DNA of 64,000 nucleotides. Source: Methanothrix thermoacetophila PT. GTDB taxonomy: Archaea; Halobacteriota; Methanosarcinia; Methanotrichales; Methanotrichaceae. The stretch spans positions 186,001 to 250,000 of the forward strand of contig NC_008553.1 of the NCBI RefSeq assembly GCF_000014945.1. The letters are read 5' to 3'. Made by a program: the position numbers and the translations under genes. Below are positions 7,721 through 39,935 of the stretch, piece after piece. The notes beneath the pieces are model-generated. The model saw nothing but the letters and a program-made list of their open reading frames with translations, had not been told where the DNA came from and did not search any database. Position 1 is the stretch's first letter. Every line of letters begins with the position of its first letter.

Positions 7721-7814
7721 ATCAGATCTTGCATAAGATGTAGAAAGCGATTGATGCTGGTTGTGCAGAGCCTGCCCCTCCGACGATTCGGATTCATGAG
7801 CCTGCACCAAAACC
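7721..7814 (+). repeat. Family III dispersed sequence, copy containing a duplicated target
   Basis: About 90 bp here (GATCAGATCTTGCATAAG ... TTGTGCAGAG ... CCGACGATTCGG ... ATGAGCC) align with 25584-25679. The other copy has the CCGACGATTCGG/ATGAGCC region once, whereas here that region is present twice (7777-7814 and 7852-7889). Confidence 0.5.
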
Positions 7815-7889
7815 TTTTCCATCTCTTTTAGCCATGTGTCAAGCACCGGGACCTCCGACGATTCGGATTCATGAGCCTGCACCAAAACC
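7777..7889 (+). repeat. 38-bp direct repeat pair around a 37-bp unique insert (CRISPR-like geometry)
   Basis: Positions 7777-7814 and 7852-7889 are identical over 38 bp (starting CCTCCGACGATTCGGATTC, ending CTGCACCAAAACC), separated by 37 bp of unrelated sequence at 7815-7851. The repeat contains the small palindrome CCGACGATTCGG. One repeat-spacer-repeat unit without cas genes could be an orphan mini-CRISPR or an off-target spacer integration. The same geometry recurs at 15870 and 25906. Confidence 0.6.
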
Positions 7890-14203: not shown

Positions 14204-15568
14204 TCATACCAGAAGCCTGGGGACCTTCGTCTCGAAGTCAAAGCTGTTCGCTCTTGTTATGTATGAGAAGACCTCGCGGATTCCCTGCAATCCAGCGTAC
14301 CGGTACGCATTCCTCCACACTCGCGCGGATGTTCTCAGCGGTGCTGTCCAGGGGTAGACGCGTTTGAGGGATCTGTCGAGGACCTCCTCCATCTCCTTTG
14401 GGGTTATATTGGGATGATTCCAGACCAGATGCTTTCCGTCGAAGTGATGGTAATCGTGATCGAATATGCCGTAGCGCTCCTGGATCTCGTTCCAGAGCTG
14501 CGTCTGAGGCAGCGGCGTGAGCACGCATATCTGGGTGATATCGAGCTTCAGATCCGCGACCCTCTTTACATCTTCGTCTATCGATCTCACGGTGTCATCC
14601 TCAAATCCGATCATGTAATAGCCTACAGTGCCCATGCCGTGGCTCTGAAGGAGCTTTATCGTCTCCACAATATCCTCGACGCCCTCGCGCTTCTTTATGT
14701 CATCCAGGCGCTCCTGGTGGAGGTTCTCGATCCCGATGGCAGCGCCTGCAAAGCCGCTCACCATCCTGCGCGCGCTGCCATCGCGCCTGGCCACGCGCCG
14801 CCTCATCGTCACCCACTCGTCTATCTTCTCTCTGAGGTAATCAGCCCTGGCCATGCATCCCCAGACCATGTCGTACTCATCCAGAATCTCAACGACCCTG
14901 TCCGCATGCCTCCTGTTCGCCCCGAAGTTCTCGTCCTCTATTATCACCACGTTGATGTTGTTCTTCTTGTAGTAGTTCACTACCCTCTCGATGCTCTCAA
15001 GGGGTATCGGCGTTGGCTTTGGCGCGAAGCATGGGGTCTGACAGAACTTGCATCCAACCCCACACCCCCTTGTTGTGAAGAGGATTCCGTAGATGTTGAG
15101 CTTCAGCCCGAAGGGTGTGGAGAGGTACTCGATCAGAGGAGGATGTACCACCTTCTCTATCCTTCTCCCGAAATACGGAGCCACCTGGTGCTCAGCGTAT
15201 CCCACAAAGACCCTGTCGAATCTGTCCTGTATCTCAGGTGTCAGGGCGCCGTAGTTTCCGGCCCAAAGCTCGTTTATCCCCCTGGCCCTCGCGGCCTCGA
15301 CCATCTCGAGAATCTCATGCGTCTCGTTGAGGTAAAATGAGAAGCCAACGACATCCCAGCCCTCATCAAGCTTGCGAAGATACTCCTCCCATGTCGGGTA
15401 CTCCAGGATCTCCAGCTCGGGGATATTCTGCTTCAGAAACCTGAGTCCGAATGACTGTATCCTGGGCCAGTAGAATCTAAACCATCTGCTCCTGGAGTTG
15501 GAGCCTATGTAGTCATAGGGCTCGTCATCGTTCTTGTAGACGGTTGTGAAGAGCACCCTTGGGGCCAT
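14204..15568 (-). CDS. Second B12-binding-type radical SAM protein
   Basis: The 454 residues have an N-terminal Rossmann-like region (VLFTTVYKNDDEPYDYIG, VVGFSFYLNETHEI, LWAGNYGALTP), then the radical SAM cluster motif GCGVGCKFC near residue 173. Later come EDENFGANRRHADRV and GYYMIGFEDDT, typical of this superfamily. A basic segment (RRRVARRDGSARRM) in the barrel is unusual and may be an insertion. It is the first gene of the pair with 12736-14190. Both may act on the same pathway, perhaps lipid or cofactor methylation, but no neighbour identifies the substrate. Confidence 0.83.
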   Translation of the reverse strand: MAPRVLFTTVYKNDDEPYDYIGSNSRSRWFRFYWPRIQSFGLRFLKQNIPELEILEYPTWEEYLRKLDEGWDVVGFSFYLNETHEILEMVEAARARGINELWAGNYGALTPEIQDRFDRVFVGYAEHQVAPYFGRRIEKVVHPPLIEYLSTPFGLKLNIYGILFTTRGCGVGCKFCQTPCFAPKPTPIPLESIERVVNYYKKNNINVVIIEDENFGANRRHADRVVEILDEYDMVWGCMARADYLREKIDEWVTMRRRVARRDGSARRMVSGFAGAAIGIENLHQERLDDIKKREGVEDIVETIKLLQSHGMGTVGYYMIGFEDDTVRSIDEDVKRVADLKLDITQICVLTPLPQTQLWNEIQERYGIFDHDYHHFDGKHLVWNHPNITPKEMEEVLDRSLKRVYPWTAPLRTSARVWRNAYRYAGLQGIREVFSYITRANSFDFETKVPRLLV

Positions 15569-15611
15569 GGTGGCGAGGTCGCCCTTCCAGGGCTTTAACC
15601 TTTACGATGTG

Positions 15612-15985
15612 TGCGATGGACCTGTCCGAATAAGGATTAAGTGTTTCTGATATGCAGAAGTGGTAAGGTTCAAATTTCTGGTCGCGGCTCTTATCCGGAC
15701 AGGTTCTGTGTGAGGACATGTCCGAATAAGCGAAGAGTAATTGTGATAAACATGAGCTATAAGGCGCATATTTTTGGCTCCCGCCTCTTATTCAAACACG
15801 TTCTGTGCGATGGACATGTCTGAATAAGAGCTGATATCGGAAATCTGTGGTTTGCTGCTTTTGGATGGCGGAGACACTTGATTCTTAATCGAACGGGTTC
15901 TGTGCGCTGGAGTCGTCGATGCGCTCAAATTACATTCTAAAGTGGAGACACTTGATTCTTAATCGAACGGGTTCTGTGCGATGGT
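15612..15985 (+). repeat. Tandem array of Family I units (copies 2-4 plus a duplicated end)
   Basis: Three units follow each other with a start-to-start distance of about 96 bp (15618, 15714, 15810), joined by linkers resembling TTCTGTGCGATGGAC. The first is in the orientation of the 25290 copy, the second is the diverged type seen at 3231, and the third is inverted like 34231. After 15900 only the last 37 bp recur, at 15944. The array fills the gap between the radical SAM pair and the DUF2284 gene. Confidence 0.75.
15870..15980 (+). repeat. 37-bp direct repeat pair around a 37-bp unique insert, inside a Family I unit
   Basis: Positions 15870-15906 and 15944-15980 are identical over exactly 37 bp (starting GGAGACACTTGATTC, ending GGGTTCTGTGCG). 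The 37 bp between them (15907-15943) is unrelated to the repeat family. Elsewhere in the window, Family I ends are not duplicated, so this is a target duplication flanking an inserted fragment. Confidence 0.65.
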
Positions 15986-25905: not shown

Positions 25906-26015
25906 GTGACGCAAGCCAGTTGCTGGATATCCGCCTGGCAGGATGTCTTCTTTCTTTCCCACAATCATTTATACCACCGTGACGCACGCCAGTTGCTGGA
26001 TATCCGCCTGGCAGG
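25906..26015 (+). repeat. 37-bp direct repeat pair around a 36-bp unique insert (CRISPR-like geometry)
   Basis: Positions 25906-25942 and 25979-26015 match at 36 of 37 bases (GTGACGCA then A or C, then GCCAGTTGCTGG ... CGCCTGGCAGG). They are separated by 36 unrelated bp at 25943-25978. The repeat holds the palindromes CCAGTTGCTGG and GCCAG...CTGGC, giving hairpin potential. A diverged single relative of the flank and target lies at 25418-25470. Confidence 0.6.
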
Positions 26016-30626: not shown

Positions 30627-30640
30627 TGGGCTCACCCTAT

Positions 30641-30750
30641 GTGAGTGTCACAGGGGACGACCCATCCTCTTTTGCCGCTGACGATCTGACGGATGGCATC
30701 GCCAGGACAAGCTGTGAGCGTCGCATGGGATGACCCATCTTTTTTTGCGG
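30641..30750 (+). terminator. Two similar hairpin-plus-T segments, 73 bp apart
   Basis: The 37-bp segments 30641-30677 and 30714-30750 match at 30 of 37 bases and are separated by 36 bp. Each contains a small hairpin (GGGACGACCC, ATGGGATGACCCAT) followed by a T-rich run (CTCTTTTG, CTTTTTTTG). They lie just after the DUF4139 stop, so tandem termination is the simple reading. The 37+36 spacing equals that of the other repeat pairs, so it could be an older event of the same kind. Confidence 0.5.
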
Positions 30751-39677: not shown

Positions 39678-39935
39678 GGACCTGTCCGAATAGGGATCAG
39701 GTGTTTCTGACATGCAGTTGGAGAGATGGCCAAACACGCGTCTGGATTTGAACAGCTCTCCGAATAAGGATTAGGTGTTTCTGACATGCAGAAGCGGTTA
39801 GGTCCAAATTTCTGGCATCGGCTAATATCCGGACAGGTCCGTTCATGGGACCTATCCGAATGGGATGGAATGCTTATGACAAACAAGAGCTATAAGGCTC
39901 ATATTTCTGGCTCCAACCTTTTATTCAAACAGATC
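39678..39935 (+). repeat. Three Family I units in series (copies 7-9)
   Basis: Unit 1 (39678-39755) starts GGACCTGTCCGAATAGGG and loses similarity after CATGCAG. Unit 2 (39756-39841) is a full copy ending ATATCCGGACAGGTCC. Unit 3 (39848-39935) is the diverged type with ACAAACAAGAGCTATAAGG and ends in TTTTATTCAAACAGATCC. The spacing of units 2 and 3 is about 94 bp. The array separates guaAB from the mscS-like gene. Confidence 0.7.

Follow-up and report, generated by a model that had tools for sequence, protein, structure and literature searches.

Casposons are elements of kilobase size that are bounded by terminal inverted repeats and make short (~14 bp) duplications, and the transposases that we know of make target duplications of about 2-14 bp. 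To our knowledge, the only process that combines an insert of ~37 bp with a target duplication of ~37 bp is the integration of spacers by Cas1-Cas2. For the Cas1-Cas2 of Escherichia coli, integration of spacers into non-array places of the genome has been described in vivo (Nivala, Shipman and Church 2018, doi 10.1038/s41564-017-0097-z; cited through PMC11788318 and PMC9456107). The off-target sites used in vitro by the type II-A Cas1-Cas2 of Streptococcus thermophilus have 54-57% G at their ends (PMC6895254). Off-target spacer integration has so far been discussed as a side reaction of the laboratory and as a route to the birth of new CRISPR arrays.

In the window, a stretch of 64 kb of the chromosome of the methanogenic archaeon Methanothrix thermoacetophila that was analysed as a whole, a local 37-bp sequence is duplicated around an insert of the same length. 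This pair is very probably the footprint of an off-target (i.e., non-CRISPR) spacer integration by Cas1-Cas2, one of dozens in the chromosome.

The duplication at 15870-15980

The first copy of the duplicated target occupies positions 15870-15906 of the plus strand and the second, identical in 37 of 37 bp, positions 15944-15980, giving a start-to-start spacing of 74. Between them lies a spacer-like insert of 37 bp (15907-15943), which occurs once in the whole genome. An earlier note on this DNA had described an exact 37-bp duplication around a 37-bp insert, ending at 15907 versus 15981, and direct sequence comparison bears this out: the right limit of identity is C15907 versus A15981, and the left limit is at 15869/15943. 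The three further bases that match past the right mismatch (TGG) are trivial. The pair is intergenic, between a minus-strand open reading frame (454 amino acids, start at 15568) and a plus-strand one (205 amino acids, 16121).

The target sits where a Family I element ends; such elements are units of ~90 bp with imperfect inverted ends. Three of them are arranged head-to-tail on the plus strand, at 15618-15706 (inverted ends GGACCTGTCCGAATAAG and CTTATCCGGACAGGT), 15714-15803 and 15812-15900, and it is the third whose end is duplicated. The duplicated piece had been taken as the end of the element; this holds for the terminal ~31 bp, which belong to unit 3, and not for the remaining six bases, TGTGCG, which are part of the short flanking repeat between the units. 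The three elements (15604-15984) are spaced by TGTGCGATG-like repeats of 8-9 bp, as if each element had inserted into the same short target. The sister species do not have the Family I array at this locus: G003 and G002 contain an empty TGTGTGCGATG site in place of the triple, and G005 has one element. A contig search with the neighbouring gene recovered relatives of that gene only and no filled orthologue of the pair.

A search with the Family I unit gave 47 matches in the genome, and the insert was found with one of them only. The element has been struck at least four times, at genome positions 201870 (the pair described here), 617998, 1063683 and 225685. The duplications at 201870 and 617998 are at the same position within the element, as would be expected if duplication and insert together were a fixed variant of Family I. 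The two inserts differ, however, and that of 201870 is present in no other copy, which makes the probability of a fixed variant negligible; the earlier note had named the same arrangement in many Family I copies as the observation that would speak against insertion, and this is not what the genome contains. Its view that a fragment was inserted with target duplication, rather than an array being inherited, agrees with the absence of the insert from the other Family I copies, and also with five other pairs of equal dimensions, the targets of which are single-copy in sister species. The insertion at 15870, with its target duplication of 37 bp, is real and recent, and is among the youngest of the scattered events.

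Pairs elsewhere in the genome

A scan of the window for direct repeats at spacings of 20-400 gave four good pairs (7777, 15870, 25906 and 39685), all with a spacing of 73-75; three shuffles of the window under a third-order Markov model yielded no pair as good as that at 15870. With the pair at 30640, which came from a scan of higher sensitivity, there are five in total. All are on the plus strand. The second pair (7777-7889) is an exact 38-bp duplication (7777-7814 and 7852-7889) around a 37-bp insert (7815-7851), and the third (25906-26015) a 37-bp duplication with one mismatch around a 36-bp insert (25943-25978). The fourth (30640-30748) is older, with six mismatches in 36 bp and a 37-bp insert (30676-30712). 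The fifth (39685-39791), also older, is located within a Family I element and has a diverged duplication of ~33-37 bp at a spacing of 74.

The census was extended to 938 kb, about half of the 1,879,471-bp, one-contig genome, consisting of a 544-kb sample (the window and 24 further stretches) and an independent sample of 394 kb. After doubtful and secondary matches were taken out, ~27-29 events were counted, or about one per 33 kb; by extrapolation, the whole genome would contain perhaps ~55. Nearly all pairs have a start-to-start spacing of 71-75; elsewhere between 20 and 300, matches are at background level apart from the one peak named below. In the 544-kb sample, 21 matches fell in the spacing bin 70-74, while nearly all other 5-bp bins held 0-3; the sole other peak, 11 matches at 245-249, probably stems from one repetitive gene. 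In the 394-kb sample, 14 matches were found at 70-79 (8 and 6 in the two bins). In most pairs, 33-37 positions agree between the best-fit 37-base windows. At most other loci the duplication measures 35-38 bp; the inserts are 34-38 bp long (mean 36.5). The duplications range from identical (193777, 201870 and 617998) to 7-8 mismatches, so the events differ in age.

In several cases, an empty site is preserved in sister species. The pair at 1230094 is empty in all five, their two flanks overlapping by 28-38 bp exactly at the duplication-insert-duplication; the flanks overlap in the same way at 519633, empty in G003, and at 1593848, empty in G004 and G005. The target at 1023517, which by eye comprises the last part of a minus-strand gene together with the stop codon, is single-copy in all five sister genomes. 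The pair at 216640 (30640 in the window) is filled in G003 with an identical insert, and in G005 and G002 the ~36-bp target is present once, with no insert. The elements struck at 838772 and 1555968 contain the target once in their G003 copies. The single-copy targets at five pairs other than that at 15870 show that these are real insertions of ~37 bp with ~37 bp of target duplicated.

These sites also bear on another possible origin of the pairs, namely inheritance as the decayed remains of ancient CRISPR arrays that belonged to other systems and had a different repeat in each case. The repeat-spacer-repeat anatomy and the CRISPR-like lengths are what such relics would have. Every supposed repeat is nevertheless a piece of local sequence (the end of an element, or of a gene at 1023517), the loci share no repeat sequence, and the sister species have the target piece once and the spacer not at all; we therefore regard relic arrays as very unlikely. 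An insert flanked by a direct duplication is, formally, the signature of transposition, and would be left by a non-autonomous mobile element as small as ~37 bp if the transposase acting on it duplicated 37 bp of target. Unlike elements of the MITE type, the inserts share neither sequence nor ends, and a duplication of 37 bp exceeds the about 2-14 bp made by known transposases, so that a mobile element is extremely improbable.

Some pairs have changed after insertion. At 1557641-1557823 (L022:7641-7823), three copies of a 36-37-bp target alternate with two different inserts of ~37 bp, which suggests that the new site took on the role of an array when a second insert arrived; the locus may be an array of two spacers that arose away from the CRISPR loci. 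At 1553581 (L022:3581-3769), a 73-bp unit is repeated 2.6 times with the same insert, and at 1566085 (L022:16085-16480) a 71-bp unit is present in five or more tandem copies, again with the same insert. These tandem units look like the result of ordinary recombination between repeats, amplified from a pair. About six pairs are clustered in the 5 kb of 1553500-1558200 (L022:3500-8200), among several short repeat families. The same pair is found three times at steps of 6885 bp (1643916, 1650801 and 1657686; L023:3916, 10801 and 17686), reflecting either a tandem triplication of 6.9 kb of chromosome or an effect of the assembly.

In other organisms, a spacing of 66-80 gave zero pairs in 1.09 Mb from 77 loci, and no such pairs were found in G033 and G026. 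Sister genome G003 has five pairs, more diverged, in 400 kb. G019, a member of the same family with two cas1 genes and 37-bp CRISPR repeats, has zero pairs at a spacing of 70-76 in 520 kb; cas1 and repeat length are thus not sufficient, and another factor matters in the M. thermoacetophila lineage, perhaps a less specific integrase or a plentiful supply of attractive targets. Three side observations were made in these genomes. G019 contains a single pair at a spacing of 66 (L181:9217; 31-bp duplication, 35-bp insert), next to CRISPR repeats of 37 bp in that genome. In G026, from the same class, only weak, partial Cas1 matches were obtained (L240 and L248), possibly remnants or a distant Cas1. 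Many short repeats lie together at L161:11187-11360 of G003, in what looks like the gene of a repetitive protein.

The controls weigh against replication slippage, or a repair-driven duplication with templated filler DNA, as the source of the pairs. Whole units of 71-73 bp in tandem at 1553581 and 1566085 do show that recombination acts on pairs afterwards. But slippage or repair would explain neither the fixed 37+37 geometry nor inserts that are absent elsewhere in the genome, and the main spacing peak is at 70-75 in both samples, with no counterpart in the other organisms. We consider an origin by slippage or repair exceedingly unlikely, and return to integration by Cas1-Cas2.

CRISPR modules, inserts and target ends

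The genome has exactly two cas1 genes, both in CRISPR modules, and two complete cas4-cas1-cas2 modules. One belongs to a type I-D operon (Cas10d, Cas7d, Cas5d, Cas3d, Cas4d, Cas1d, Cas2d) and the other to a type I-B locus (Cas1b, Cas2b, Cas4b, Cas8b, Cas7b, Cas5b, Cas3b, Cas6b). One CRISPR array has 60 repeats (GTCGCAACGAGTGAGAAAACCCGATAGGGATTGAAAC) and the other 98 (GTCGAAGAGCGAGTTCCAGGAAAACAAGGATTGAAAC); the repeat is 37 bp long in each, and the canonical spacers, ~155 in number, are mostly of 34-39 bp. The scattered pairs therefore match them in both dimensions, duplication to repeat and insert to spacer, and this points to Cas1-Cas2. In sequence, the duplications are local and unrelated to the CRISPR repeats of the genome (GTCGCAACG... 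and GTCGAAGAG...). We infer the role of Cas1-Cas2 from this geometry and from there being no other known process with such a geometry. The lengths of the inserts (mean 36.5) do not differ significantly from those of the I-B spacers (36.3; p=0.36) and do differ from those of the I-D spacers (37.3; p=0.003), which weakly favours the I-B module, rather than I-D, as the one responsible.

In the mechanism that we propose, the host Cas1-Cas2 (with Cas4) would take up a prespacer of ~37 bp. Both of its 3' ends would be joined to opposite strands, 37 bp apart, at an ordinary chromosomal site, in the manner in which Cas1-Cas2 acts on the first repeat when an array grows. Repair of the gaps would then duplicate the 37-bp target, in this case the Family I end, resulting in the order target-insert-target.

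The inserts differ between loci and almost all are single-copy in the genome. They may derive from foreign, perhaps viral, DNA. No insert has been traced to a virus or plasmid, and the GC content of the inserts is that of the genome (0.53), unlike that of canonical spacers (0.46-0.49); both points, like the lack of an empty orthologue for the pair at 15870, speak against off-target spacer integration. The insert of the 15870 pair had no match in 24 relatives, phages and plasmids, and 24-25-base cores of four inserts, including this one, had no exact match in IMG/VR. Comparison of 14 concatenated inserts with phages, of the 15870 insert with plasmids and of 19 inserts with 25 genomes returned nothing beyond the source loci, one related copy of an element and G003, where an old pair is shared.

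Of 26 duplication ends, 13 start with G (p=0.009), in line with the off-target sites found in vitro (PMC6895254). A leader-like GCY flank (GCC or GCT) is present at 11 of 29 sites, as against 3.1 at shifted positions, a feature that first caught attention in the initial 14 sites and is weak in those added afterwards. The two real leaders of the genome end in ...TATGCC and ...GCCGCT. Compared with shuffles, the duplicated pieces do not have significantly stronger stem-loops.

Comparison with known systems

Dozens of events, differing in age and located on unrelated target sequences, are recorded here in a natural genome. This record makes two questions accessible from sequences only: does the integrase, as opposed to repeat motifs, determine how long the duplicated repeat is, and which sequences does it prefer outside arrays? 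Single-spacer arrays listed as "questionable" in databases may be genuine integration scars. A bolder and rather unlikely extension is that the adaptation machinery of this lineage goes on founding mini-CRISPR loci throughout the chromosome, with Family I elements among its preferred targets. Some of these loci would gain a second spacer and a few might be transcribed and processed, and the scattered sites would thereby be where new arrays and repeat sequences arise. In the literature examined, we have found no description of such a density in nature, of the empty sites, of a second strike at one and the same element position or of the second-round locus.

With casposon integration (Cas1-solo), the proposed events share the chemistry of a Cas1-family integrase, but casposons are of kilobase size with duplications of ~14 bp, and no cas1 exists here outside the two CRISPR modules. 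Virus-borne mini-CRISPR arrays also have one spacer between two repeats; their repeats mostly match the host CRISPR repeat, whereas the duplications of the pairs do not (PMC8616872). The growth of the genome's own I-B and I-D arrays shows the same 37-bp duplication and an insert of 34-39 bp, although the targets of the pairs show no relation in sequence to either the CRISPR repeat or the leader, and usually receive a single insert. The type II-A Cas1-Cas2 of Streptococcus thermophilus, like the activity proposed here, uses non-CRISPR sites; it prefers G and a leader-repeat-like context, as the activity here may do as well. That reaction was in vitro and probably half-site on a plasmid, while the events described here are full-site and fixed in the chromosome (PMC6895254). 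In the non-canonical integration by E. coli Cas1-Cas2, too, spacers enter non-array places of the genome in vivo; according to PMC11788318 and PMC9456107, it concerns a bacterium with Cas1-Cas2 overexpression and IHF-like sites helping, whereas the events in M. thermoacetophila are natural, occur in an archaeon that has both I-B and I-D systems, and reach about one per 33 kb. Events of this kind are already known from overexpression of Cas1-Cas2 and from work in vitro; it is the density reached in nature that is notable.
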